IMG/VR virus record: IMGVR_UViG_3300025450_000136
Location: 1 to 22,500 of that record
Strand: one strand, 5' to 3'
Source of the DNA: a virus
DNA: 22,500 nucleotides
The position numbers were made by a program, and so were the translations under genes. This document shows, one piece after another, positions 31 through 22,258 of the stretch (position 1 is the first letter of the stretch; every line of letters starts with the position of its first letter). The notes beneath the pieces are model-generated. The model was not told the origin of the DNA and made no database searches. It was given only the letters and a program-made list of their open reading frames with translations.

Positions 31-819
31 TTGCTGCATGGGAGGCTGCATGCCGGGGTTTTGAGGCGCCTGCATTTGATACTGGTTCATGCTAGGGCTA
101 ACCGGCAATTGACCGGGCATACCAAGGTTGCCATAACCGGCGGGCAACGGTGGATTCACATAATGTTTTGCTTTTCGAGCAAGTTCACGCGCCATGCTAA
201 TCGGGCTCAACGCGTCTTCCAATTCCATGTTGGCTTTAGCTGCGACGGCGTTGGGATCACTCACTTTGCGGCCGTCAGCATACTTTTTTACTTCACCACC
301 AGTCTTGTACTTGTTGGGCATTTCTTTTGCGCCAGAAGCAGCTTCGGCTTTTTTGTTGCCGGTAGGGGGAACCTTTTTGATTTTCTCGGCGTCGCCAGCG
401 GGCTTGCTTTTTTCTTTAGCAACGTCCGAGCCCTTCATGGCGGGCTTTTCTGCTGCCTTAGAAGGTGCAGCAGCTTTTTTGGGCTTGATGTCTTTGACTT
501 TTTCAATGTTGTCCAAGTCGCCAGAAGATTTTTTGGCTTCGTAGACGTTCTTAACTTCACCACCAGACTTAAATTTCTTCACGGTGCCTTTTTCCTTCTT
601 GGAACGGCCACCCTTTTTCAGCTTAATTTCTGTAGGTTCTTTATCGTGTTCAGCTTTATCATGCTGTTTAAAAGCCTTTTTAATCAAGGCCTTATCTTGC
701 TTCATGTCAACGTCGCCGCCTTCTTTCATCTTGGTCATACCGCCGCCGCAGTATTCTGCCTTAGCGTGGCCGCCTTCTTTGAAGTGCTGCATTTTGGGTA
801 GTGTTTTGAATCCGTCCAT
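1..819 (-). CDS. Lys-rich low-complexity protein with GG motifs (3' end outside window)
   Basis: The reading frame is open from an ATG at 819 to the window edge, giving at least 273 residues with no stop. The protein is very rich in Lys, Ala and Glu. Short motifs of the form K-x-GG-x recur (KEGGH, KEGGD, KKGGR, FKSGGEV, YKTGGEV). The C-terminal part turns into a Met/Pro/Gln/Gly-rich tail with tandem PQQGM units. An AGGAAA ribosome site lies a few bases before the ATG. The gene follows the endolysin after a 78-base gap that carries a promoter-like element. I know no catalytic motif here. Proteins with similar GG-V motifs occur as unknown proteins in aquatic phages, so a virion or DNA-associated role is only a guess. 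A long open frame on the opposite strand mirrors this gene, but it is Phe/Leu-rich and lacks protein-like features. Confidence 0.8.
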   Translation of the reverse strand, partial: MDGFKTLPKMQHFKEGGHAKAEYCGGGMTKMKEGGDVDMKQDKALIKKAFKQHDKAEHDKEPTEIKLKKGGRSKKEKGTVKKFKSGGEVKNVYEAKKSSGDLDNIEKVKDIKPKKAAAPSKAAEKPAMKGSDVAKEKSKPAGDAEKIKKVPPTGNKKAEAASGAKEMPNKYKTGGEVKKYADGRKVSDPNAVAAKANMELEDALSPISMARELARKAKHYVNPPLPAGYGNLGMPGQLPVSPSMNQYQMQAPQNPGMQPPMQQGMPQQGMPQQ

Positions 820-2573: not shown

Positions 2574-3002
2574 CTATTTTAAATACGGTAAAACAATTTC
2601 AGGCTCAACAAAACGTTCGTCTTTATGTTCAATGAGTTCCCATGAAGTGAACGGATTTTCAACTAAATACGAACGATCTTTTAATAAATTAACATTTTCT
2701 GGATAGCCAAATATCAATGGGTCCGACGGGCCCCACAAAACAATTCCTCTTTTGCCAAAGTCCCATGCAAAGTGTTGTAAAAAACTATCGCATGAAATCC
2801 AGATTCTGCATTCTTTAATAATTTCTGCTAACTGATCCAATGAAAGATTTTTTCTAAAATCCTCAACAAGTTGCTCTTCACCATCAAGCCCAACTTGGAC
2901 AATTGGCTCATCAATTTGAGCAATTAGCTCTTTCCAAAAAGGATAGTTTTTTGGATTCCTACTATCATGCAATCTTTGTGCGAATGGAGAAATTAAGATC
3001 AT
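2574..3002 (-). CDS. GT9-like (heptosyltransferase-type) glycosyltransferase fragment
   Basis: This 142-aa protein resembles the C-terminal nucleotide-sugar-binding half of glycosyltransferase family 9, the ADP-heptose:LPS heptosyltransferase type. The key stretch is near residues 68-100: WISCDSFLQHFAWDFGKRG followed by IVLWGPSDP. It matches the family pattern of a D-S/T-x-x-x-H-x-A segment, a Gly, and then a strand ending in a Gly-Pro turn. Full GT9 enzymes have about 300-350 residues and two Rossmann domains, so the acceptor-binding half is missing here. The gene overlaps the GT2-like gene by ATGA and is followed by the lysis module. It may be a minimal enzyme, a partner of the upstream glycosyltransferases, or a relic. 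Similarity is moderate. Confidence 0.6.
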   Translation of the reverse strand: MILISPFAQRLHDSRNPKNYPFWKELIAQIDEPIVQVGLDGEEQLVEDFRKNLSLDQLAEIIKECRIWISCDSFLQHFAWDFGKRGIVLWGPSDPLIFGYPENVNLLKDRSYLVENPFTSWELIEHKDERFVEPEIVLPYLK

Positions 3003-3973
3003 AGATACAGCTTTCTAAAACCGTTTTCTAATGTGTCTCGCCAATTCCATTGGCTCATTTTTCGGTACACATTCCACTGCTCTATGCTACCAAAATAGTT
3101 ATAGGCATCTCTAAGACTTGCCCCCGGAACAATTTCTGGATAGCACGTAAATACCAAGGGGTTTTTGATCAACGGCAGTATTCTTTTAAATACAACGTGA
3201 TCACCGCGGCCGCAATTAAGAACAACAATCGTTGCATCAGCGCAGCGAAGGAAGTTTTTAAATATTTCCTCATCGTGTCGATACAAATCCATGTTGGTTT
3301 CGGCACGAATTCCACCTTGGGGGTTCTTCATGTGCCACGTTATTGCATTGGGCACAACCAATAAGTCATATCCCTTTTGATGCAACGCCCAAGTAAACAA
3401 TGTTTCTTCTCGGTGCGCTACACGCGATAAACCTAAGTTGTAATCACAAATACCTGCCCGGTACAAAAACGTGCAGTGTAAATGATCAACCTTTTTAACT
3501 TCTTTTATAACATTCCATTGAATGTTAGGCTCGTCAAAAATGTCATTGATTTTACCGGTTACTTTAGATGTGTCTGGAAAATCAGGCGGTGTTAACACAG
3601 CGCCACCAACCGCACCTAAATTTTTATATATTTTGGTGTATTCGTACAACGTTTCCAAAACATTTGGCTCTGGCACTGCGTCATCATCTACACGCCAAAC
3701 CCAGTCATACCCCATCACGTTGGCTTGGTGGTGGATGTGGTGCTGACCTTTTTTCTCCGCTTCACGCCATTCCCAAGGAACGCCTTTGCGGTCTAATATT
3801 TTGAAAAAATAATCATACACCAACTGGCCGCGCACATCTTTGAATACATCGTTGTCGTCAAAGATAATTAATTTATCTGGCAGTTTGGTTTGGTTGATGA
3901 TTGCATTCAACACTATCGGCAACGTCGTATCATAACGGCCTCGGGTTGCCACCGAGCAAAGTACTTTACTCAT
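2999..3973 (-). CDS. GT2-type (GT-A fold) glycosyltransferase
   Basis: This 324-aa protein begins with a nucleotide-binding strand (SKVLCSVATRGRYDTTLPI) as in family 2 glycosyltransferases. It carries an acidic metal-binding motif DDD at residues 96-98 in VWRVDDDAVPEPNVLE, the usual DXD position. A region near residues 170-200 (SRVAHREETLFTWAL) may hold the catalytic acidic residue. The product would be a soluble enzyme that moves an activated sugar onto an unknown acceptor. About 80 C-terminal residues after the GT-A core are not recognised. The gene overlaps both neighbours by a few bases, so the three glycan genes are probably translated together. Acceptor and sugar cannot be told from sequence. 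Confidence 0.82.
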   Translation of the reverse strand: MSKVLCSVATRGRYDTTLPIVLNAIINQTKLPDKLIIFDDNDVFKDVRGQLVYDYFFKILDRKGVPWEWREAEKKGQHHIHHQANVMGYDWVWRVDDDAVPEPNVLETLYEYTKIYKNLGAVGGAVLTPPDFPDTSKVTGKINDIFDEPNIQWNVIKEVKKVDHLHCTFLYRAGICDYNLGLSRVAHREETLFTWALHQKGYDLLVVPNAITWHMKNPQGGIRAETNMDLYRHDEEIFKNFLRCADATIVVLNCGRGDHVVFKRILPLIKNPLVFTCYPEIVPGASLRDAYNYFGSIEQWNVYRKMSQWNWRDTLENGFRKLYL

Positions 3974-5204
3974 TATCGTAGATACACAGCATTAAGTTGG
4001 CGGGGTTTTCAGAAGACACACTATTCAGCGTGTCAGATATGTTACCATCAAAGTCAACATATGTAAACTTAAACCCCGGAAAATCTTTTTCCGTCAAACC
4101 ATGCAGTTTGTGGTGTTCGCCCCAAAAACCTTTGGGCTCATCGTACGGCACCGAAATTAATAACCGTTTGCAATGGCCTTTTAGCTTTTCAACAATTTCC
4201 AAGCCATTATCAAGGTGTTCAATCACCTCAAAGGCAATGATTGTGTTATACCTGCCCAACTCAAATGTGTTAATGTCAGCATAATAAAAAGTTGCGTTGT
4301 CAGACCACTGTTGCTCTTTTGCCACTTTCACAATCTGTGGGTCGTAATCCAGCCCCATGTACGTAACATCTTCTGGCAAAAACTGGTAACCGTAGCCCGT
4401 GGAGCATCCAATCTCCAAAACTTGGCCGCCTTTTAGGTTACGAGCCGCCCATTCATAACGCTGTGTTTCTCTTGAAAACACTGGGTCGCCTTTAAGGAAC
4501 ACAGCGCGTTCATAATTGTTTGACAAGTACCAACGGTACCAGTCCATGTTGTTGTACTTCTTTGCCAGTTTGACTTCGTTGTCTGAAAACGTTTGTTTCC
4601 AGTCTTTAACTAACGTTTCGTCATGCACAGTGCCTTCAGCCACATGGAAGATTGGGAAGTCACCTTTATAACCCACATCAGCCAGCTTAAAACCCGCATC
4701 TAGGGCCCGTTTGCAAAAATCAATGTCTTCGCATCCACCAACGTTAAACTGTTCGTCTAATAGGCCAATTTTGTCAAATACCTTTTTCTGAATCATTACA
4801 CAGAAAAAGACACCAAATGGCTCGTTTGTAATTTTGGAGCGTTGCGTTAGAACTGCTGATATATCACCGATACACAAGCGTTCTAGCCATTTGTTTTTTG
4901 GCTGTTCCAACAACACCGTGTCGTTATTCAACAACACAATTTTGTCGGTTGTGGCCTTTTTAGTGCCCGCATTAGCAGCTTTGGCAAACCCAAGTGGCTT
5001 ATCATCCCAAAGGGCAATGAAATCCAAGCCGGTGGCTTGAAGAAAATTCAAGTAGGCCTTGGTGGCATCTTGACATCCATTTGCTACGATTATCAACTCG
5101 ACATCTGACATGTCGGTGTATTTGATGATCGACTCAATGCAAGGCTTGAGGTATCTTTCGCAGTTGTTGTAAGTTGGTATTACAACGCTATATTTTTTAG
5201 GCAT
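3966..5204 (-). CDS. Fusion of GT2 glycosyltransferase and SAM-dependent methyltransferase
   Basis: This 412-aa protein has two domains. Residues 1-230 are a GT2 domain: SVVIPTYNN at 6-14, the acidic motif LLNNDT at 91-96, and EDIDFCKR at 159-166, which is typical of the catalytic base region. Residues 245-412 are a class I methyltransferase: motif I VLEIGCSTGYG at 262-272, an acidic strand end LDYDP near 285-289, and FEVIEHL at 325-331 as in small-molecule and glycan methyltransferases. The protein could add a sugar and O-methylate it, or cap a chain. An inverted repeat and a promoter-like element precede the gene, and a 16-base palindrome overlaps the ATG. It heads the glycan cassette. The domain calls are strong, but the substrate is unknown. 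Confidence 0.88.
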   Translation of the reverse strand: MPKKYSVVIPTYNNCERYLKPCIESIIKYTDMSDVELIIVANGCQDATKAYLNFLQATGLDFIALWDDKPLGFAKAANAGTKKATTDKIVLLNNDTVLLEQPKNKWLERLCIGDISAVLTQRSKITNEPFGVFFCVMIQKKVFDKIGLLDEQFNVGGCEDIDFCKRALDAGFKLADVGYKGDFPIFHVAEGTVHDETLVKDWKQTFSDNEVKLAKKYNNMDWYRWYLSNNYERAVFLKGDPVFSRETQRYEWAARNLKGGQVLEIGCSTGYGYQFLPEDVTYMGLDYDPQIVKVAKEQQWSDNATFYYADINTFELGRYNTIIAFEVIEHLDNGLEIVEKLKGHCKRLLISVPYDEPKGFWGEHHKLHGLTEKDFPGFKFTYVDFDGNISDTLNSVSSENPANLMLCIYDNE

Positions 5205-10673: not shown

Positions 10674-13019
10674 TTAAAATGCCCCACCAGCAATACCGGT
10701 TGGTACAGTCAAAAGCCCCGTAGTATCAATAGTCGCAGCAAGTCCACCGTTAACACTAAAATAAATAGGATTGCTGGTGGTAGAACCAAGAGCCAAAGGC
10801 CCTGAAGTTGAACTAACATACACCACATTCGGTATATTAAACGGCGTGGCCGATGTTCCCGACCAACCAGAACTATTTATACCAAAGTCACCATAATATG
10901 TGCCCGATGTACCAAGGTTGTTACTTACAACATAATCTGATGAGGCTGTAGATCCCGCATTTGTGTTTTGCAGAACAATCTGGTTATAGGTGTTTACACT
11001 TGAAGTATACGATGCAAAAATATTAACATCGCTATAGCTTAACGTACCATAATTAAATGCACCGGCTGTTAGGGCGCCTGTAATAGTGCCGGTTGCAGTA
11101 TGGAACGGCGAAGTAAATACTTTGGTTGAGCCGTTAAAATACAACCCATCGCTGCTAAAACCATACGCTGTTTGGTTCGATCCCAAAGCGGGAACAGCAA
11201 CCAAAAAGTAGTTGGCATTCGTCGTGCTATCCGTTGCGTTAATTTGCGTAGACGGCCCTGTTGCACCGCTAAAACCAGAGTAGCCAGAGATGCCACTAAA
11301 ACCAGAGTAGCCCGATACGCCAGAGCCGCTGTAACCCGAATAGCCAGAAATGCCACTATAGCCGGATAGGCCGAAACCGCTATAACCTGAAGTACCAGAG
11401 TAGCCAGAAATACCGCTATAACCAGAAATTCCGCTAAAGCCAGAGTAGCCAGAAATGCCACTAAATCCAGAGTAGCCTGATACGCCAGAGCCGCTATAGC
11501 CGCTTATACCGGACCAGCCCGAGATTCCACTAAAGCCCGAATAGCCGCTGATACCTGACCAGCCCGATATGCCGCTAAAGCCCGAGTATCCGCTATAGCC
11601 GCTGATACCAGACCAGCCTGAAATTCCACTAAAACCCGAATAGCCGCTTATGCCCGACCAGCCAGAAATGCCACTAAAGCCAGAGTAGCCACTGATGCCA
11701 GACCAGCCAGAAATACCAGAATAGCCGCTAAAACCAGAGTAGCCTGATATTCCGCTGGCGCCGCTATAGCCACTGGTTCCAGAATAACCTGAAATGCCAC
11801 TGAATCCAGAATAGCCTGAAATACCGCTATAACCTGAATAACCAGAAAGACCAAACCCAGAATAGCCAGAAAAACCACTGTATCCAGAATAACCAGAAAG
11901 GCCAAACCCAGAATAGCCAGAATAGCCGCTTGTGCCGGGAGGTCCTACAATCTGACCGACATTATTCCAAACCGTTCCAGACCAAACATACAAATCGCCA
12001 TTAGAGCTAACAATGTACGCATCGTTAACTTGATTGCCAGTTGCTGGCAAATTTGCCGGTGTGGCAACCGTACCTTTGATGTTGATCGAAGTACCTTGCT
12101 GTCCAGATATACCCGAAAAACCACTAAAACCGCTGTAGCCGCTTACTCCTGAGCCAGAGTACCCTGAGGTACCTGAATAGCCAGAAACGCCGCTAAAGCC
12201 CGATAAACCGCTGTAGCCGCTGAAACCAGAGAAGCTGGAGTAGCCAGAAAGTCCAGAATAGCCCGAAAAGCCACTATATCCGCTGATGCCGGACCAGCCA
12301 GAAGTGCCCGAATAGCCGCTAAAACCTGAAATGCCAGACCAGCCTGATGTTCCGCTGTAACCAGAATATCCGCTAAAACCACTCAAACCCGACCAGCCAG
12401 AAATACCCGAATATCCGCTAAAACCACTTAGGCCCGACCATCCGGAAATACCTGAATAGCCGCTATATCCACTGATGCCAGACCAGCCAGAAGTGCCCGA
12501 ATAGCCGCTAAACCCGCTATAACCTGACGTGCCCGATGTTCCTGATGTACCTACACCAGAATAGCCTGATGTGCCTGAATATCCAGAATAGCCAGAAACA
12601 CCTGAACCAGAATAGCCCGATGTACCAGAGTAGCCAGAAATTCCGCTAAAGCCTGATGTGCCTGAATATCCCGAAAAGCCGCTGTATCCAGAATAACCCG
12701 ATGTGCCAGTAACTTGGCCGCAATCAATAGTTGCGCCAGTTGTTTCAGTTAAAATCAAATGACCGTTGGAGTCAATTGTTGCTGAAACAAACCCCGGAAT
12801 AGGCCCAACTTGCGACGTTGTTCCATCGCTATAGTAAAAAATCAGGTCGTAATTTGATGGATTAAGTGCGACGTTGGTAATCAGTTTACCGGGCGAAGCT
12901 GCATTGGCAATCTGCGAAACAGACGCCTGTTTGGTTACCCCGTTTTGCACAACCGGAACTTGCTCATTACCTGTAAGGTTTAAAGCAACTGGCAGTTGTG
13001 TTATACTCTGATCAGCCAT
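10674..13019 (-). CDS. Collagen-like tail fibre with Pro-poor Gly-X-Ser repeats
   Basis: This 781-aa protein has a 104-residue N-terminal part (SITQLPVALNLTGNEQVPVV), probably for virion attachment. A Gly-X-Ser repeat follows (residues about 105-304), then a short globular insert (about 305-356; INIKGTVATPANLPATGN). A second Gly-X-Ser block runs to about residue 584, and a beta-rich C-terminal domain of about 195 residues follows. Gly occupies every third position over about 430 residues, almost always with Ser before it and Tyr, Phe, Trp, Ile, Thr, Leu or Val after it. This fits a collagen-like triple-helix stalk, but Pro is nearly absent apart from one GPPG. I infer a long trimeric fibre with the receptor-binding part at the C-terminus. 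Confidence 0.85.
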   Translation of the reverse strand: MADQSITQLPVALNLTGNEQVPVVQNGVTKQASVSQIANAASPGKLITNVALNPSNYDLIFYYSDGTTSQVGPIPGFVSATIDSNGHLILTETTGATIDCGQVTGTSGYSGYSGFSGYSGTSGFSGISGYSGTSGYSGSGVSGYSGYSGTSGYSGVGTSGTSGTSGYSGFSGYSGTSGWSGISGYSGYSGISGWSGLSGFSGYSGISGWSGLSGFSGYSGYSGTSGWSGISGFSGYSGTSGWSGISGYSGFSGYSGLSGYSSFSGFSGYSGLSGFSGVSGYSGTSGYSGSGVSGYSGFSGFSGISGQQGTSINIKGTVATPANLPATGNQVNDAYIVSSNGDLYVWSGTVWNNVGQIVGPPGTSGYSGYSGFGLSGYSGYSGFSGYSGFGLSGYSGYSGISGYSGFSGISGYSGTSGYSGASGISGYSGFSGYSGISGWSGISGYSGFSGISGWSGISGYSGFSGISGWSGISGYSGYSGFSGISGWSGISGYSGFSGISGWSGISGYSGSGVSGYSGFSGISGYSGFSGISGYSGISGYSGTSGYSGFGLSGYSGISGYSGYSGSGVSGYSGFSGISGYSGFSGATGPSTQINATDSTTNANYFLVAVPALGSNQTAYGFSSDGLYFNGSTKVFTSPFHTATGTITGALTAGAFNYGTLSYSDVNIFASYTSSVNTYNQIVLQNTNAGSTASSDYVVSNNLGTSGTYYGDFGINSSGWSGTSATPFNIPNVVYVSSTSGPLALGSTTSNPIYFSVNGGLAATIDTTGLLTVPTGIAGGAF
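11268..11947 (-). repeat. Gly-X-Ser coding repeat, block 2
   Basis: These 9-bp units (two Gly-X-Ser triplets make 18 bp) are organised in places as a 45-bp unit encoding ISGWSGISGYSGFSG. The units differ mostly at third codon positions, so protein sequence is conserved more than DNA. This is a coding repeat, not a CRISPR array: there are no unique spacers of constant length. Confidence 0.8.
12105..12707 (-). repeat. Gly-X-Ser coding repeat, block 1
   Basis: This is the same type of repeat as the downstream block, covering fibre residues about 105-304. It includes a run of three Gly-Thr-Ser triplets (GTSGTSGTSG) near 12530 and repeated ISGWSGLSGFSGYSG units near 12330-12430. Synonymous differences between units are frequent. 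Confidence 0.8.
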
Positions 13020-15294: not shown

Positions 15295-16212
15295 TTAAAC
15301 GCCTTGTGTGCCGTAAATATTACGGGCATCGTGCCAGCCGGTAGCATAACGCTCGGTGGCTTTGTAACGCATAGAGTCGGTTTCGAAATCGCCTTCCATA
15401 GATTTTTCCATGGGACGACGCATAACCAACATCAAACCGTTTTCAGCGTCGGTTTGAATCCACCATGCTTTAGAAGAGCTCAAACGAGTCACGACGTGAG
15501 TGCCCTTAGGCAACATGCCGGTAGACTTGATCGGGTTCAGATCGTTGTCGGCGGTGCCGGAACGCAGAACAGACTTCAGGATCACTTCAGCTTGGAATTC
15601 CAAAGCAGGAGGAACCACCAGTTGTTCAGCCTTCAGGCGGATACGCTTACCGTTATTGTCAACGGCGCTACGGATTTGAATCAACAACTGTTCAACAGAA
15701 GTTTGGCTCAAAGAAGCAGCGGTAGACAATTGGTTAGAGTAAGAACCACCGTTAGCAATGGGGTGAGCGGTGTTGATCAAGGTCACGCCGTCGCCGCCGA
15801 TGTAGCCGCTGGTGAACGCGAAGTTCAACAAGTTGGCGCACAAAGTTTCCTTGGTTTCAATCATCGATTGAGCCAAGTGTTTAGCGAAAGTGCTACCGAT
15901 ACGGATGTGGTCACCGTCTTCCATCAACACTTTGGTCAAGGCGTAAGCCAAGCCATAGATTTGATAGATGAAACGTGTGATGTACAGAGTACCGCCTTGG
16001 TCATAGCTGACAGGAGTGCCGTCAGGCATAGCTGGGGCGGCATTCATGCCGTACAACATCACTTCTTCGTGGTAGTTGCGGGGAATACCTTGGATTTGTT
16101 CAACAAATCCTTTCCATTCGTCCGCACGTTGTTCATAAACACCGTCAAAGACTTCGTTGATAATCGGTTCGACTACCGCACGAAAGTCCGTACTGCGCAT
16201 TGGGGTTGCCAT
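15295..16212 (-). CDS. Major capsid protein (HK97-fold, Mu gpT-like)
   Basis: This 305-aa protein resembles major head subunits of the Mu gpT-like group. It has an N-terminal helical segment (FRAVVEPIINEVFDGVYEQ) and a central IYGLAYALTKVLMEDGDHIR region. The stretch LINTAHPIANGGSYSNQ matches the N-T-x-H-P-x-x-x-G-G-x-x-S-N signature often seen in these capsid proteins. The C-terminus is basic and aromatic (AWWIQTDAENGLMLVMRRPM, then ERYATGWHDARNIYG). Length is normal for this group and no fused protease is evident. An AAAGGAT ribosome site precedes the ATG. Scaffold-like and portal genes upstream and a strong terminator downstream fit a highly expressed capsid gene. Confidence 0.88.
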   Translation of the reverse strand: MATPMRSTDFRAVVEPIINEVFDGVYEQRADEWKGFVEQIQGIPRNYHEEVMLYGMNAAPAMPDGTPVSYDQGGTLYITRFIYQIYGLAYALTKVLMEDGDHIRIGSTFAKHLAQSMIETKETLCANLLNFAFTSGYIGGDGVTLINTAHPIANGGSYSNQLSTAASLSQTSVEQLLIQIRSAVDNNGKRIRLKAEQLVVPPALEFQAEVILKSVLRSGTADNDLNPIKSTGMLPKGTHVVTRLSSSKAWWIQTDAENGLMLVMRRPMEKSMEGDFETDSMRYKATERYATGWHDARNIYGTQGV

Positions 16213-16236: not shown

Positions 16237-16908
16237 TTAAACCGATACCGAGGCGGCAGCGAATTGGTTATTGCAGATTTGAACTTGCACGATTGTGTAA
16301 GCGTCACCCCAAGCGTTATTATAACCGCCGGGATAAGCCACTTCGCGGCCCAAACCAACAACACGAACTTGACCTTGGTTGCCTGTACCGACAGAAGTTG
16401 CCAACAAAGCGGCGGTCGAGAAGCCAGCGCCCCCGTTGCCGATTGCGTAACCGTCAGTCACTGTAGAACCAGTGGTCGTGTCGAAGTTGTACTCTGTACC
16501 AATAGCTGCTGTAGTAACAGAACCATTGACTTGAGCTTCATACACCAATGCGGGATCAGAGAAGATCCAGAAAATGATGTTGGTAGAAGCGTCCAAAGTT
16601 GTCTTGGATGCGTACTTAGCAACAGAACGACGACCGTCAGAGTTGGTGTACTCGACGCCATCAAACACGCCGAACACTTTGCCAGAGCCAGAGCCCGAAG
16701 CATTTTGTGCAGCGATTGTCAATTGACCTGTGGTAGTAATAGCCACGGGTTGGAATTGCCAGAAAGATTGGCCGGAGGACAGTGAGTACGGAGCGGTATA
16801 AGTAGTGCCGGGATTGTAGGTATTAGTACCTGCAAATGCCGTAGCACGATCCAAACCACTTGGATGATACACTGGCTTCAGACCAAAGGGTTGAAATACT
16901 GTGGACAT
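16237..16908 (-). CDS. Hypothetical virion protein upstream of the capsid gene
   Basis: From the ATG at 16908 the protein has 223 residues. It starts STVFQPFGLKPVYHPSGLDR and then is beta-rich with Gly/Thr/Ser-rich stretches (GSGSGKVFGVFDGVEYTN, then AIGNGGAGFSTAALLATSVG). The family is not recognised. Its place between the scaffold region and the major capsid gene, its composition and a strong AAAGGAAAA site suggest a head protein made in quantity, for example a decoration or minor capsid protein. The frame stays open to 17073, but that extension overlaps the preceding gene and has basic residues unlike the rest, so I reject it. Confidence 0.7.
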   Translation of the reverse strand: MSTVFQPFGLKPVYHPSGLDRATAFAGTNTYNPGTTYTAPYSLSSGQSFWQFQPVAITTTGQLTIAAQNASGSGSGKVFGVFDGVEYTNSDGRRSVAKYASKTTLDASTNIIFWIFSDPALVYEAQVNGSVTTAAIGTEYNFDTTTGSTVTDGYAIGNGGAGFSTAALLATSVGTGNQGQVRVVGLGREVAYPGGYNNAWGDAYTIVQVQICNNQFAAASVSV

Positions 16909-16933
16909 ATTTTCCTTTGTTATTTTGAAGTTG

Positions 16934-17485
16934 TTATTGGAAACGAATATTGCTACTCGCTTTTCGAGTTTCCTTTTCCATTTCCAGAATTCCGCCTTCA
17001 AGAATAGAACGACCGCCTTTTCCGTCTTGGGCCGTATCACGAACCGCTGCGGTAATATTGCGCTGATGCTCAAGGGGATCCTCTAAATGCATCATTTTCA
17101 TTACTTCTTGATAAACTTCTTCCGGCAATTTGAAAAGAATCATCTCGTTGCAAGAAACACAGCCTTCAAACTTGCCTGAATTCATTTTGCCTAGTCCCTC
17201 AAAGCCTTGTCCTAGTTCACTGGCTTTAACTGGCTCATAACCCAACGCCATACGTTTGTCGATACTGTCATATGTGTTGGTTGTTGACAACCAACACAAA
17301 TGCATTCCCGGGATTGCGTCCCGAGGAATATCTGGCAGTGCACTATTCTGCCATTTGTCACGGAAGGCCTCAAGACGCTCCCGTTGTGCCTTAGCGTCAC
17401 CACTTAAGGCCTGACGCTCATGAACTGCTTGTACGCGGTCGGCCAAACGGTCTTCGACATCGCGTTTAATACGTGTATTTGTCAT
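16934..17485 (-). CDS. Hypothetical head-module protein
   Basis: This 183-aa protein is mostly helical and charged, with an Arg/Glu-rich N-terminus (RIKRDVEDRLADRVQAVHER). A central segment, IPGMHLCWLSTTNTYDSIDKR, is followed by YEPVKASELGQGFEGLG, and a Cys-x-x-Cys-like pair (FEGCVSCNEMILFKLPEE) lies near residues 108-111. The C-terminus is again helical and basic (RSILEGGILEMEKETRK). I do not recognise the family. Similar unknown proteins sit between scaffold and capsid genes in related phages as far as I can judge. A structural or assembly role is inferred. AAAGGAT precedes the ATG. Confidence 0.68.
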   Translation of the reverse strand: MTNTRIKRDVEDRLADRVQAVHERQALSGDAKAQRERLEAFRDKWQNSALPDIPRDAIPGMHLCWLSTTNTYDSIDKRMALGYEPVKASELGQGFEGLGKMNSGKFEGCVSCNEMILFKLPEEVYQEVMKMMHLEDPLEHQRNITAAVRDTAQDGKGGRSILEGGILEMEKETRKASSNIRFQ

Positions 17486-17490
17486 TTCAT

Positions 17491-18468
17491 TTATCCTTTA
17501 TTCTGACGATCATATGCGGCGTATGCGCGGATCATCTTATTGCGTTTGTTAACATCATCCCAAGCCCCAGCCTCTTTAATGGCCTGCACACGATCACGAC
17601 TTAGCGTAATCTGGCCGGGTTTTGTGCCCTGTGCCTGTGCAGTACGGCTTGATGCCGTGGGGTTGGCTCGTCTGCCGCCTTTTCCGGTGTACCGGTGAGG
17701 CAAACGTGTTGACAAACGACTATCTAACTCGTCCCAATATTCTGGGTCTGCTGGGTCCCACCCATCGGCAGCGAGTTCGGAGTCAATTACTTTGGCAATT
17801 CTACTATCTGTATCACGTGCTTGGGGATCGTACCAAGAATTCTTCTTTAACCACGTTGTGGCGTTACGTTGAATCTCAGACGATGCCACATTAGGCACGT
17901 TTTGTTTGGGACTCCTTGCGGCGTCCACTTGTTGTTTCTTATAATGCTGGAGTTGCTGCAGTTTTTGCTTGGATTCTGTCAAAGCCTCCAAGTACTCAAC
18001 CTGAGCCGCTGCATCGCCATTACGTGCAGCTTCCATCATCTTCATTTTGGCGTATTCAACCCGAGTTGCCTCGTCTTCAACCGCCTTATCAATCTGCGCA
18101 AACTGGTATGATACAGCCGTGTTCTCTACAGCAGCCAATCGTTTTGCCAGTTCTTCGTTCCGTCGCTCCAGCGCCGAAATTTTATGTTTGGCAGACGCAT
18201 CACGTTCTTTTTGCAGTGCTTTTTTCAGCCGACGCTCTTCACGCCTTGCTTCTCGGATCTTCTCGCGGTCGTCTTCGGTATCGCCTTCGACATTTTCGTC
18301 GGCGCTGGCTTCAGTATCCTCTTCATCTACCGAACCACCTTCCGCTTTTTCGTCCGTATCTTCATCATCTTCCAACACATCGTCGGGATGGGTGCCAACA
18401 CTTGCTAGAACTGTGCCGTCTTCGCGTTCCTTAATCGGAATATTATCAATTTTTTCTTGTTCGCTCAT
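17491..18468 (-). CDS. Scaffolding-like acidic coiled-coil protein
   Basis: This 325-aa protein from the ATG at 18468 begins with a very acidic region (residues about 30-75; DDVLEDDEDTDEKAEGGS). A long Lys/Arg/Glu-rich helical stretch follows (REERRLKKALQKERDASAKH, then LERRNEELAKRLAAVEN) that should form a coiled coil. Next come helices rich in Gln and Ala, and then a C-terminal part with WYDPQARDTDSRIAKVI and PEYWDELDSRLSTRLPHR. Composition, length and place between portal and major capsid fit a scaffolding protein that directs procapsid assembly. No protease motif is visible. A TTG at 18492 in frame would overlap the preceding gene, so the ATG is preferred. Confidence 0.75.
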   Translation of the reverse strand: MSEQEKIDNIPIKEREDGTVLASVGTHPDDVLEDDEDTDEKAEGGSVDEEDTEASADENVEGDTEDDREKIREARREERRLKKALQKERDASAKHKISALERRNEELAKRLAAVENTAVSYQFAQIDKAVEDEATRVEYAKMKMMEAARNGDAAAQVEYLEALTESKQKLQQLQHYKKQQVDAARSPKQNVPNVASSEIQRNATTWLKKNSWYDPQARDTDSRIAKVIDSELAADGWDPADPEYWDELDSRLSTRLPHRYTGKGGRRANPTASSRTAQAQGTKPGQITLSRDRVQAIKEAGAWDDVNKRNKMIRAYAAYDRQNKG

Positions 18469-18481
18469 ACTTTTTCCAAAG

Positions 18482-18919
18482 TTAATCCACAAAGGCCTTC
18501 ATCTTTTGCGCTGCATCGAAAGATTTAATCTTAGAAATAATCTCACGTGCTTGAACGGTAATAAACACTACCGGTGCGCCTTCATCATCAGGTTGAATCA
18601 CATAACGATCGCCGCCGTATTTAATGGTGCGTACCAGATCACCTTCTTTACACCAAGGACCTTCAATCCAAGGGCTCAAATCATCTGGGCTCTTATACGC
18701 CAAAGGTCCAACTTGGATAACCTTGGCTACTGTCTCATTAAATCGGAGCGTTTGTTTAGTTTCATCAACTAAAATAATGCCGCCCTTGCTTGTTGTCTTC
18801 TCGCGTCGCAGTTGAACCAAGACACGATCACCTAAAACTTCGATACCACAATCTACATCCGGAAAACACTCTTTTTCCGAACGCAAATCAGGCTCGTCGC
18901 CTTGTTTAAAGTCAATCAC
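18482..18919 (-). CDS. GroES-like co-chaperonin
   Basis: This 145-aa protein has the cpn10 plan. LGDRVLVQLRRE (residues 29-40) matches the GroES start. A mobile-loop-like segment KTTSKGGIILVDETKQT (41-57) follows, containing the GG-I-I-L motif that in GroES docks on GroEL, and then NETVAKVIQVGPLAY (61-75). A later strand, YGGDRYVIQPDDEGAPVVFI, fits the rest of the barrel. Host GroES has about 97 residues, so about 28 N-terminal residues and an insert near 76-95 are additional. It would cap host GroEL while folding phage head protein, as T4 gp31 does. The GTG start is supported by AAGGAG nine bases upstream. It sits between the portal and scaffold genes. Confidence 0.85.
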   Translation of the reverse strand: MIDFKQGDEPDLRSEKECFPDVDCGIEVLGDRVLVQLRREKTTSKGGIILVDETKQTLRFNETVAKVIQVGPLAYKSPDDLSPWIEGPWCKEGDLVRTIKYGGDRYVIQPDDEGAPVVFITVQAREIISKIKSFDAAQKMKAFVD

Positions 18920-18934
18920 TTTACAGTGCTCCTT

Positions 18935-19188: not shown

Positions 19189-19422
19189 TCAATAAAAATT
19201 GCCGCCGCCGATGTCTTTCAGGTTTTTATCTGGACCAATCTTCGAAGGTTTGGTCAGTTTTGCCTGAGCAGCGCCGATTTTCCAGTTGTTATCGCGGTGC
19301 GAGCCAGCGGGGCCTGCATCAAGGCCGGTTTCGCCGGGGCCACCAGCGTAGCCCATGTTGCCAGTTTGTTGGTAGGTCTTACGGAAGCCCAATTCGCCGC
19401 CGCTTTGTTTTTTATTCGCCAT
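19189..19422 (-). CDS. Small Gly-rich basic hypothetical protein
   Basis: This 77-aa protein from the ATG at 19422 starts ANKKQSGGELGFRKTYQQTG and continues with Gly/Ala/Pro-rich sequence (YAGGPGETGLDAGPAGSHRD), ending KNLKDIGGGNFY. It appears disordered and basic. The family is not recognised. The start is chosen for GAGGATC just upstream. It overlaps the portal stop by 11 bases, so translation is probably coupled. The frame is open further upstream inside the portal gene, but that part is a shadow of the portal's Gln-rich coding sequence. Confidence 0.68.
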   Translation of the reverse strand: MANKKQSGGELGFRKTYQQTGNMGYAGGPGETGLDAGPAGSHRDNNWKIGAAQAKLTKPSKIGPDKNLKDIGGGNFY

Positions 19423-22258
19423 TTTGATCCTCGGGTGGTTGTTGTTGTGGTTGAAGTTGTGCCTGCTGTTGGTTTTGAGCCAGTTGCTGGAAGTGTTGTT
19501 GCCGTGACTGAGCCGCTTGAGCCGCTGCCTGAGCCTGTTGTTGCGCTTGTTGTTGCACCATTTGCGCTTGGGCTTGGAAATTCTGCTGCTCAATCGCTAA
19601 ACCATGCTGACGAATGTCCTGTGTGGCTGCGTCAATCGCTTGAACCGCCGACATGTCCTGTTCATGTTCAATTTGGGCCTGTTGTTGGTCCATTTGGGCG
19701 CCGGTGGTGATTGTTGCAATCCGTTCCTTGGCAGAATTGTTGATATTTGCCATGGCAATCGTTGTTGCGTTGCGTTGGTTATCAATGCTGGTCTGCGTTT
19801 GGTACTTGGTTTGCAAATCTTGCACTTTTTGCTGCAATTCAGCGACCCGGATTTGATAATCTTGGGTGGCCTGAGCCATTTCGGCCTGCATTTTAGCTTG
19901 AAACTCTTGCGCCTTGCGTTGAGTCTCGGCCATTTGCGTTTTAAGCAGCACTTGTGCCGTAGGATCGGCCGCGGCAGCATTTTGTTGCTGCATTTGATTC
20001 ATTTGTTGCACCTTTTGCACCAGCGCCATGATGTCTTGCATATACGGCTGCATGATTTGCTGCGACTCTTGGTCGATAATCTTTGAAGCAACGGCCAAAG
20101 CCTGCTGAGATTCCCAATCCAAAGTCTTTTCTTCGTGCAAATCCAGCACATCCTTGCCGCCAGACACCTTTGCCACAATGTTTCGCATGGATTGGAGATA
20201 GAAAAGCATCAAATGTTGCTTGATGTGTTCCAATGCCACGGGTGCAAACGTCGGGCCAATGATCGGACTGCCGCCATACACTGGGTTTTTGGCGTATTCC
20301 AAGTGAATTTGGATGTGCGCCATGTGATCTTGGTCAGGATACGCCGCAGCAGGCCGTCCCATTGTCATAGAAACGTTCTCCAGCGCGGGATTTGACTCTT
20401 TGGCACCCTGTGGGTTCGGCAAAATTTGTTCGGCTTCCGGGATTTTTAGCTGATTTACCACACGGCTGTACACAGCACGTAGGTCAAACATGCCCGGAGG
20501 GGCCGTACTTGCCATTTGCAACAACGCTTGGTTCTGTGCCAACCGCTGTGTTTCAGAGAAAATGTTGGGATCCGAGACTGGGCGTACGTCACTGTTGTAC
20601 GAAAAGTCACGTACTTCAATTTCTTCGCCCGACTGGTTGTCCATTTCATCCAAGTACCAGTTATTGATACGAGAAATGATCTTGAGCGACTTGGCCTGCG
20701 AACGGTGCAAACGTGCATGGATGCTAGAAAAGACCTTAGCGCCTTGTTCAATCAGTGCCTGCGTTGTGCCAACGGGCATGTTGTTGTTTGCGTCACCGAT
20801 TTTTTCTTCGGCGGTGGTCACTACCCCCTTAGCCGCGTCTGTAAGCCAGCCTAGGAGGTTATAGAGGACGCTAGAGGGGCCCGGGAAGGGCAACTGCATT
20901 GCCAGCTTGCGCACGTCATCAACGCCCGGTGCGCCTTCGATTTCTACAACCTGCGTAGGTTCAATGCGGTCCGACTGGCCGCCAATTCGGCCACCCTTGA
21001 GCTTGAGAAGCGTCTGGCTATTGGAGATATGAGCCGCGTCCATAAGAGCACGAAGGGCGCCAGTAAGAGCAGCACTAAGACCGCCGATGAGATGAGGCAA
21101 CCCGATAGCGTATGCACCGCGCCATGGAATAAACTTGAACTCAACGTACCAGTCCAATTTTTCAAATTTGTCGTCCCCATCAGCCCAGTTACGGTACAAA
21201 GCTAACACCTTGCTGGTTGACTCATCAATAGTCAAAATGTACGGTGCGCGTTTGCCATTGGTTTGGTCGTCGTCATCCAAACGCATGAAACAAGTAATTT
21301 CATAAATACGGCGCATGCCGTCAATGTTCTTACCCGAATACTGTTTGCCTTCAATCTTGTCGTTGGCTTTTTCAGACTGCGTTTGGTCGTCGATCGGTGC
21401 GTCTGACGTGTAGGTCGAATCAATGTCGCGGTAGATACCCGCCTCAACACGCTGGAGGAACTCGTCCTCTGTAATGTCCTGAACCTCAGTTACACGCTGC
21501 GATGTGTAGAAGTTGGTCGATGCATATGGCAACAGGATGTTATCGATCGGGATCCATTCGCACATTGGGCGACATTGTTCCGAATCCCAGCGCCATTTTA
21601 GGAACTGCGAACCGCCAAGCGGCAGTTGGGTCAGCAGTTGCTCCATTTCATCGCGGTACTCAGGAATCTGCTCGGTCAACTGCCAGTTAAGAAAGTTAAC
21701 CTTGCGTTCGGCAACGTCCAACTTATTGCGGTCAGCCGTACCCTTGATGTTGGTTTTGGCAATCCCTTCAGGTGGCAATAACTCTTTCGCCGAACTGGCA
21801 GCAAAGTCTACACACGCCTCTGCCATAACAGGATGCACAACTTTAGAAGCACCGTCAAAAGTAGCACCGCCCGGAGCATCCTTACCCAAACCAGTGCGGC
21901 GTAGACCCTCCTCATACTGTTTGTCGCGTTGCTTACGAGCTTCTTTGTCTTCATCAATAAAGTCCAAGTATTCAATTGCTAAGTGGTCCAAGGAACCATC
22001 GTCGAATACCTCTGCCAAGTTCTCGTAGAACTCAGGGCTTTCTTTCGGGCCTTTAGTTTGTTCAAGGTTAACTACAACTGAGCCGTCTTCCAACTCAATA
22101 ATTTCACCTTCAGCTTCGCTTTCATCCAAATCCAAAGCGTCTTCAAGTTCGCTAATTTCGTCTTCTTGAAGTAAACCCTCCTCAACTTCTTTTTCGCGTC
22201 GAGGATTCAAAGACGGCAAATTGCCACCTGATTGGATTGGTAATGTTGGGTTTGCCAT
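19412..22258 (-). CDS. Portal protein (P22-like type), with long Gln-rich C-terminus
   Basis: This 948-aa protein forms the dodecameric portal at the capsid vertex, through which DNA is packaged and ejected. The first 100 residues are very acidic (DEISELEDALDLDESEAEGE). The portal core follows, with YEEGLRRTGLGKDAPGG, FDGASKVVHPVMAEACVDF near residues 132-152, LLPYASTNFYTSQRV, RGAYAIGLPHLIGGLSAA, NNNMPVGTTQALIEQGAKVF and PDQDHMAHIQIHLEYAKNP. These fit the large portal group of P22-like and related phages. Residues about 750-948 are Gln/Ala-rich and helical, and may form a long coiled-coil barrel reaching into the capsid. P22 portal has 725 residues, so this one is long. Its ATG overlaps the stop of the preceding gene (TAATG). 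Confidence 0.88.
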   Translation of the reverse strand: MANPTLPIQSGGNLPSLNPRREKEVEEGLLQEDEISELEDALDLDESEAEGEIIELEDGSVVVNLEQTKGPKESPEFYENLAEVFDDGSLDHLAIEYLDFIDEDKEARKQRDKQYEEGLRRTGLGKDAPGGATFDGASKVVHPVMAEACVDFAASSAKELLPPEGIAKTNIKGTADRNKLDVAERKVNFLNWQLTEQIPEYRDEMEQLLTQLPLGGSQFLKWRWDSEQCRPMCEWIPIDNILLPYASTNFYTSQRVTEVQDITEDEFLQRVEAGIYRDIDSTYTSDAPIDDQTQSEKANDKIEGKQYSGKNIDGMRRIYEITCFMRLDDDDQTNGKRAPYILTIDESTSKVLALYRNWADGDDKFEKLDWYVEFKFIPWRGAYAIGLPHLIGGLSAALTGALRALMDAAHISNSQTLLKLKGGRIGGQSDRIEPTQVVEIEGAPGVDDVRKLAMQLPFPGPSSVLYNLLGWLTDAAKGVVTTAEEKIGDANNNMPVGTTQALIEQGAKVFSSIHARLHRSQAKSLKIISRINNWYLDEMDNQSGEEIEVRDFSYNSDVRPVSDPNIFSETQRLAQNQALLQMASTAPPGMFDLRAVYSRVVNQLKIPEAEQILPNPQGAKESNPALENVSMTMGRPAAAYPDQDHMAHIQIHLEYAKNPVYGGSPIIGPTFAPVALEHIKQHLMLFYLQSMRNIVAKVSGGKDVLDLHEEKTLDWESQQALAVASKIIDQESQQIMQPYMQDIMALVQKVQQMNQMQQQNAAAADPTAQVLLKTQMAETQRKAQEFQAKMQAEMAQATQDYQIRVAELQQKVQDLQTKYQTQTSIDNQRNATTIAMANINNSAKERIATITTGAQMDQQQAQIEHEQDMSAVQAIDAATQDIRQHGLAIEQQNFQAQAQMVQQQAQQQAQAAAQAAQSRQQHFQQLAQNQQQAQLQPQQQPPEDQNGE

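Follow-up and report, generated by a model that had tools for sequence, protein, structure and literature searches.

Phage-encoded lids for host GroEL are known from T4 (gp31) and RB49 (CocO), both of which have the cpn10 fold. gp31 serves the ~56-kDa gp23, and is described as having a lengthened mobile loop (22 versus 16 residues) and no roof loops (PMC6318259). The view that a phage supplies a lid of its own because the host chamber cannot take so large a capsid protein rests on gp31. GroES is reported not to replace gp31 for gp23, and features besides size may matter (PMC3012670). GroES is also listed as one of the 13 core genes of HTVC023P-type pelagiphage genomes (PMC9599517) and is labelled in the figure of the CRP-901-type genome (PMC10149686), and phage RW, for which Riverwalkvirus has been proposed, is a described isolate (PMC11053796) that encodes a co-chaperonin of the kind studied here. 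Phage co-chaperonins, the core GroES of the HTVC023P type included, have therefore already been published, and the present protein adds a new member to them.

The window, by which we mean the whole stretch of 22,500 nt analysed here (positions 1 to 22,500 of IMG/VR record IMGVR_UViG_3300025450_000136), contains an ORF that matches Pfam Cpn10 (PF00166; E 5.9e-8, 33.1 bits against a cut-off of 21.1) and PHROG 3188 ‘co-chaperonin GroES’ (E 2.6e-11), and phmmer matched it to solved chaperonin-10 chains with a best E of 3e-5. It is the one Cpn10 match in the whole 22.5-kb fragment, and its relatives are encoded by 503 IMG/VR stretches. The ORF is a Cpn10/GroES co-chaperonin, beyond chance. A GroES-like gene had been read at this place in a preliminary description of the DNA, and it is present there, with Pfam, PHROG and fold in agreement. 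Its dN/dS, taken over 900 random pairs from 69 unique close sequences, was ~0.07; the loop by itself gave 0.056 and the N-terminal extension 0.089, all of these values being rough because synonymous sites are near saturation. The coordinates of the gene, its parts and its neighbours are collected in Table 1.

Table 1. The cpn10 gene, parts of its protein and neighbouring genes in the window
Feature	Position	Strand	Remarks
Phage co-chaperonin (Cpn10/GroES-type lid), 145 aa	18482..18919	-	GTG start at 18919; stop codon counted in
Ribosome-binding site AAGGAG	18929..18934	-	9 nt ahead of the cpn10 GTG; read from sequence
N-terminal extension, residues 1-24	18848..18919	-	pLDDT block means 56 (1-10), 94 (11-20), 96 (21-30)
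Mobile loop, residues 40-57	18749..18802	-	GGIIL at 46-50 (18770-18784)
Loop-arm insertion of four residues vs E. coli GroES, residues 58-61	18737..18748	-	Ungapped in 112/112 rows
Roof hairpin, residues 71-94	18638..18709	-	Aromatic 75, F/W84, W89, C90
C-terminal tail, residues 132-145	18485..18526	-	12 residues longer vs E. coli GroES
Portal protein, 948 aa, 106 kDa	19412..22258	-	PHROG portal, E 1.6e-17
Small ORF upstream of cpn10, 69 aa	18953..19162	-	Pfam T3SS_needle_E match slightly under cut-off
Gene in scaffold position, 333 aa as listed	17491..18492	-	Acidic, coiled-coil-like by eye
ORF in block, 183 aa	16934..17485	-	Pfam/PHROGs give no function
ORF in block, 278 aa as listed	16237..17073	-	phrog_37556; true start probably internal
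Major capsid protein, 305 aa, 33.8 kDa	15295..16212	-	Pfam Phage_capsid_4 / Mu-like gpT

The AlphaFold2 single-chain model, built from 104 aligned sequences, reached a pLDDT of 90.0 and a pTM of 0.85. Its input alignment (A5) consisted of the window protein, 98 of 102 cluster representatives and five close relatives; in alignment A6 one row is present twice. Both Foldseek and VIA-align ranked solved cpn10 chains highest for this model. VIA gave a Z of 9.5 (94 residues, 2.9 A) against GroES of H. thermoluteolus (8wuc), 8.0 against E. coli 1aon and at least 7.2 for 15 cpn10-type entries. The gp31 values were 7.7 and 6.8, in the range under 8 for which the tool cautions that a match may reflect no more than a common arrangement. 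The top row that is not of cpn10 type had a Z of 6.0, and the rows beneath it, mostly dehydrogenases and reductases, did not exceed this value. Superposition on solved GroES was moderate (Foldseek TM by query 0.38-0.51 in 24 cpn10-type rows), and the closest predicted viral structure was a ‘GroES chaperonin family’ protein of an uncultured Caudovirales, at 1.3 A over 126 columns. Thus the window protein is predicted to have the cpn10 beta-barrel fold, and it shares this barrel, the mobile loop and the roof hairpin with bacterial GroES (E. coli, T. thermophilus). Neither of the two failings named in the preliminary description, a loop that is not conserved and a fold other than the cpn10 barrel, was found, as the barrel is predicted and the loop is conserved.

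Conservation was read from an alignment of 112 rows, made of the window protein, 101 unique proteins from loci that had been fetched by their capsid protein and 10 proteins from phage records; the four most distant phage proteins (L171, L172, L173 and L175) were kept out, as were cpn10 ORFs that were open at the 5′-end, scored 60 bits or less or were duplicates (105 to 101). The GGIIL motif that had been noted before is present at residues 46-50. Position 48 is I, V or L in all 112 rows, positions 48 and 50 are both hydrophobic in 110, and [GS]G stands ahead of the tripeptide in 102 and is absent in ten. In seven rows (L106, L107, L109, L111, L119, L126 and L083) GR, GM, SR or ER stands in place of the GG, with the hydrophobic tripeptide retained, and this change may tune GroEL affinity.

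The spacing between the tripeptide and the roof glycine is 21 residues in every row (112/112), compared with 17 in each of E. coli GroES, phage CBB and Vibrio phage D93, 18 in T4 gp31 and 16 in Stenotrophomonas phage CM1. The additional residues form part of a helix, which covers residues 52-61 in the AlphaFold2 model, and all seven domain alignments displayed, with five PDB sequences, have a 4-residue gap at this loop arm. Among the four distant relatives outside the alignment (L171, L172, L173 and L175) the corresponding counts are 22, 22, 21 and 17; the GG motif is missing in L171 and the insertion itself in the archaeal-virus protein of L175, so the longer arm is not shared by all of the most distant members of the lineage. 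In the roof, position 75 is aromatic in 112 of the 112 rows, W89 is present in 104 and C90 in 83. E. coli GroES is gapped at the places of W89 and C90, and the WC pair is also missing there in the five PDB sequences displayed. The residues FP at 19-20 of the N-terminal extension occur in 40 of the 112 rows.

Partitioned between shared landmarks, the 48 residues by which the protein (145 residues) exceeds E. coli GroES (97 residues) comprise 23 at the N-terminus, 12 at the C-terminus, 5 in the stretch after the roof hairpin, and 4 each in the hairpin itself and between the tripeptide and the roof glycine. The preliminary description, which called the protein longer than host GroES, is borne out against the E. 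coli protein, but its 28 extra N-terminal residues come to 23; the insert that it placed near residues 76-95 corresponds to the four roof-hairpin residues, and it had missed the additions in the loop arm and at the C-terminus.

In the window, the genes run in the order portal, small ORF, cpn10, scaffold-like gene, two ORFs and capsid. The scaffold-position gene has a likelier start at the ATG at 18466-18468; Pfam and PHROGs give no match for it, and the label ‘scaffold’ therefore rests on its position and its look by eye. The earlier placement of cpn10 between portal and scaffold genes is thus correct as to position, with the qualifications that the 69-aa ORF intervenes on the portal side and that the scaffold identity is positional. 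Farther along the same strand, a 781-aa protein (10674-13019) consists mostly of collagen-like repeats of the GYSGFSG type (Pfam Collagen, 173 bits) and is probably a tail or surface fibre, and three glycosyltransferase ORFs (2574-5204, minus strand), one of them with a methyltransferase domain behind, perhaps serve surface modification.

To follow the gene in relatives, loci were fetched from IMG/VR and from GTDB contigs through capsid protein alignments and not through cpn10, and profiles were searched over all ORFs of at least 50 aa in each locus. In two capsid scans of IMG/VR, the second of which returned 80 rows with 7 already in the first set, cpn10 was found in 45/45 and 28/28 of the loci that hold portal and capsid, and in a further 7/7 and 7/7 (14/14) of those that hold no portal and more than 4 kb of upstream DNA. 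In all 73 of the loci with both genes, it lies between the two and shares their strand, at 73-154 bits. The same position was found in 51/51 GTDB contigs with both genes, so that cpn10 lies between portal and capsid in 124/124 loci. These are 118 distinct loci, because four contigs entered the count two times and another two pairs do not differ where compared, and they fall into 75 capsid clusters at 90% identity and only 9 at 70% (single linkage), which means few independent lineages; as the block is inherited as a unit, the co-occurrence partly reflects descent. Uninformative loci numbered 22/80 in GTDB and, by subtraction, 28/80 and 38/73 in the two IMG/VR scans. GTDB loci with upstream DNA and no portal had cpn10 in 5/7. 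The two misses were considered as counter-examples to co-inheritance and judged uninformative: in L388 the DNA far upstream of the capsid gene reads as bacterial and the contig is probably chimeric, and in L390 there are runs of N upstream of, inside and ahead of the scaffold-like ORF. The profile of the small ORF, at a low threshold of 8 bits, matches 113 of the 124 loci, and the ten sequences used for it are 55-74 aa long. Capsids with 97% identity were also seen in a beta-proteobacterial and a verrucomicrobial MAG (L327 and L328), which may be binning errors.

Phage records gave a similar picture. The window capsid protein matches 21 of 50,697 INPHARED records, and Cpn10 was above cut-off in 16/16 of the whole records searched among them, some being near-copies (Pag-Yong1 and MinM2; CRP-901 and CRP-902). 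The gene is also present in four more of the capsid-matched records, GB2A, RLK, KcrB and Pra-JY27, and MW202604, which stood outside the whole-record search, has the same length and match coordinates as MW202601. In MW202601 and BK063670 cpn10 is present outside the portal-capsid interval, and adjacency is thus not obligatory. The preliminary description had proposed checking if the gene is retained by relatives that have this capsid, and it is retained in all 124 loci that hold portal and capsid. The literature titles and abstract openings searched held no description of such head-block co-inheritance across these hosts. With the lid gene beside the shell genes in nearly all relatives that could be checked, the virus probably needs its own lid for the head.

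Among the closest named relatives are Caulobacter phage RW (RW_GP090c) and phages GB2A, RLK and KcrB, whose host is Caulobacter vibrioides. Their proteins are 40% identical to the window protein over 89% of its length, their gene order is that of the window, their capsid is 66% identical, and they have the FP motif ahead of the first strand; the protein is annotated as GroES in two of the four records and as hypothetical in the other two. HTVC023P-type phages (e.g. HTVC023P gp36) and Roseobacter phages of the CRP-901 type share the order small ORF, GroES, ~300-aa ORF, two ORFs and capsid, and their GroES has 26-28% identity to the window protein and the same loop-to-roof spacing of 21 residues. 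Unlike in the window protein, the N-terminal part is longer in the two pelagiphage proteins and their roof has a 3- or 4-residue gap; the CRP-902 protein is without W89, and all three are without the extra residues at window positions 113-118.

In contrast to T4, where gene 31 adjoins rIII and gene 30 and is not in a head block, the window cpn10 lies in one. The window protein keeps a roof, four residues longer than that of E. coli GroES, whereas gp31 has none; its extra loop residues (+4) lie C-terminal of the tripeptide, and gp31 has only one extra residue on that side. Moreover, no T4-like relatives were among the 13 phage records matched by the window protein (tblastn, E up to 0.01); gp31 matched 1355 phage records and E. 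coli GroES 89, five of which were brought into the comparison. The window protein resembles gp31 in outline, and is not of the gp31 family by sequence, roof or capsid size. It is an ordinary, well-supported phage co-chaperonin whose link to head assembly is clear and open to testing, and its lineage is set apart from both E. coli GroES and T4 gp31 by its loop arm and roof.

A GroEL family match (PF00118) was found in none of the 13 related records, five of which are possibly incomplete IMG/VR contigs, and none in the window; the same search found GroEL in 14/14 known genomes. The lid, if it acts as one, must therefore use host GroEL. We consider it probable, as a whole explanation, that the protein is a phage lid for host GroEL that forms a ring, docks, displaces GroES and serves the folding of a head protein. 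The protein would most likely assemble a seven-membered ring, which would dock on host GroEL through the observed GGIIL motif of its mobile loop. Late in infection this lid may displace host GroES and close the chamber around a folding head protein, the phage supplying only the lid and borrowing GroEL from the host. Gene linkage suggests the major capsid protein as the likeliest client and the scaffold-position protein as the next, and the longer arm together with the aromatic and cysteine residues of the roof may alter the height and lining of the chamber to suit it.

The client could instead be the portal protein or the assembly of the portal ring, which we regard as quite unlikely. The portal gene lies close to cpn10 in the window, as it does in most of the 124 loci, with a median gap of 441 nt between the portal end and the cpn10 open frame, and the role of GroE in lambda proheads provides a precedent (PMC4294664). 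The 18 records matched by the portal of DSL-LC04 are, moreover, all within the 21 matched by the window capsid, so that co-occurrence cannot tell portal from capsid. Distances, however, weaken the portal as the most tightly linked partner: the portal-side gap exceeds 1 kb in 33/124 loci and the portal of CRP-902 is ~9 kb away, while the distance from the cpn10 end to the open frame in the scaffold position is -81 to 301 nt in 124/124 loci, which indicates that extra DNA falls on the portal side. Size also argues against it, since portals of 76-106 kDa (13 sequences measured, with capsids of 32.7-36 kDa in as many) exceed a closed chamber that is described as already strained by the 56-kDa gp23 (PMC6318259). 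Neighbour distances and protein sizes thus make the capsid or scaffold protein a better candidate client than the portal, short of proof.

A general take-over, in which the lid would substitute for host GroES or supplement it across many phage proteins, with no particular client, appears unlikely. gp31 and CocO are reported to stand in for GroES in essential E. coli folding (PMC3012670), and in two distant records cpn10 is placed elsewhere in the genome, as such a role would allow; yet the fixed place that the gene has beside the scaffold-position ORF in every one of the 124 loci, and a loop arm, roof and two termini that depart from E. coli GroES under purifying selection, speak for a more specific task. 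It is highly improbable that the protein has a structural or regulatory role in the head, with the cpn10 barrel retained and GroEL capping lost. Its location among virion genes, its N-terminal extension and the loss of the whole mobile loop in a second copy in locus L136 (see below) would fit such a role, but the main copy, that of L136 included, hardly varies in the tripeptide that docks on GroEL. As cpn10 is kept and adjoins the scaffold-position ORF, a head-protein client remains the best reading.

What counts against this explanation is that the capsid protein, at 33.8 kDa, is smaller than clients of the ordinary GroEL-GroES chamber. The modified folding cage that had been proposed by analogy with T4 gp31 is plausible in view of the invariant four-residue addition to the loop arm, but the T4 rationale does not transfer: with a capsid protein of 33.8 kDa against ~56 kDa for gp23, and with the roof kept, the idea that a large capsid protein calls for a larger cage is rejected on size. 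This widespread lineage, whose members infect Caulobacter, Roseobacter, Pelagibacter, Alcaligenes and cyanobacteria, has the lid gene beside its head genes in each of the 124 loci with portal and capsid, though its capsid protein is only ~33 kDa. It thereby makes the question of size versus chamber chemistry accessible to experiment, with phage RW on Caulobacter vibrioides as a tractable system. A tentative reading, possible and on balance doubtful, is that the lid is obligatory despite the small capsid and that the need is for a different chamber chemistry and height and not for room for a large client. If true, this would be another reason for a phage co-chaperonin than that of T4.

Phage cpn10 genes also occur in other surroundings. 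In Shewanella phage 1/44 and Vibrio phage 1.049.O (L410 and L411) the gene lies two genes ahead of the major tail protein, and in Pseudoalteromonas siphovirus B8b it is reported three genes ahead of the tape-measure gene (PMC4294664), hinting at tail rather than head clients in these three phages. The only other cpn10-profile match in the IMG/VR loci fetched by capsid is the second copy in L136 (6029-6310, plus strand), a protein of 94 aa whose gene shares an ATGA overlap with the start of the intact cpn10. It has lost the entire mobile loop and kept a WPEGEW roof, and its AlphaFold2 model (pLDDT 90.8) has a VIA Z of 10.6 to M. tuberculosis Cpn10. A scan of IMG/VR for close relatives of this copy returned only the L136 contig itself, and the copy could form mixed rings.
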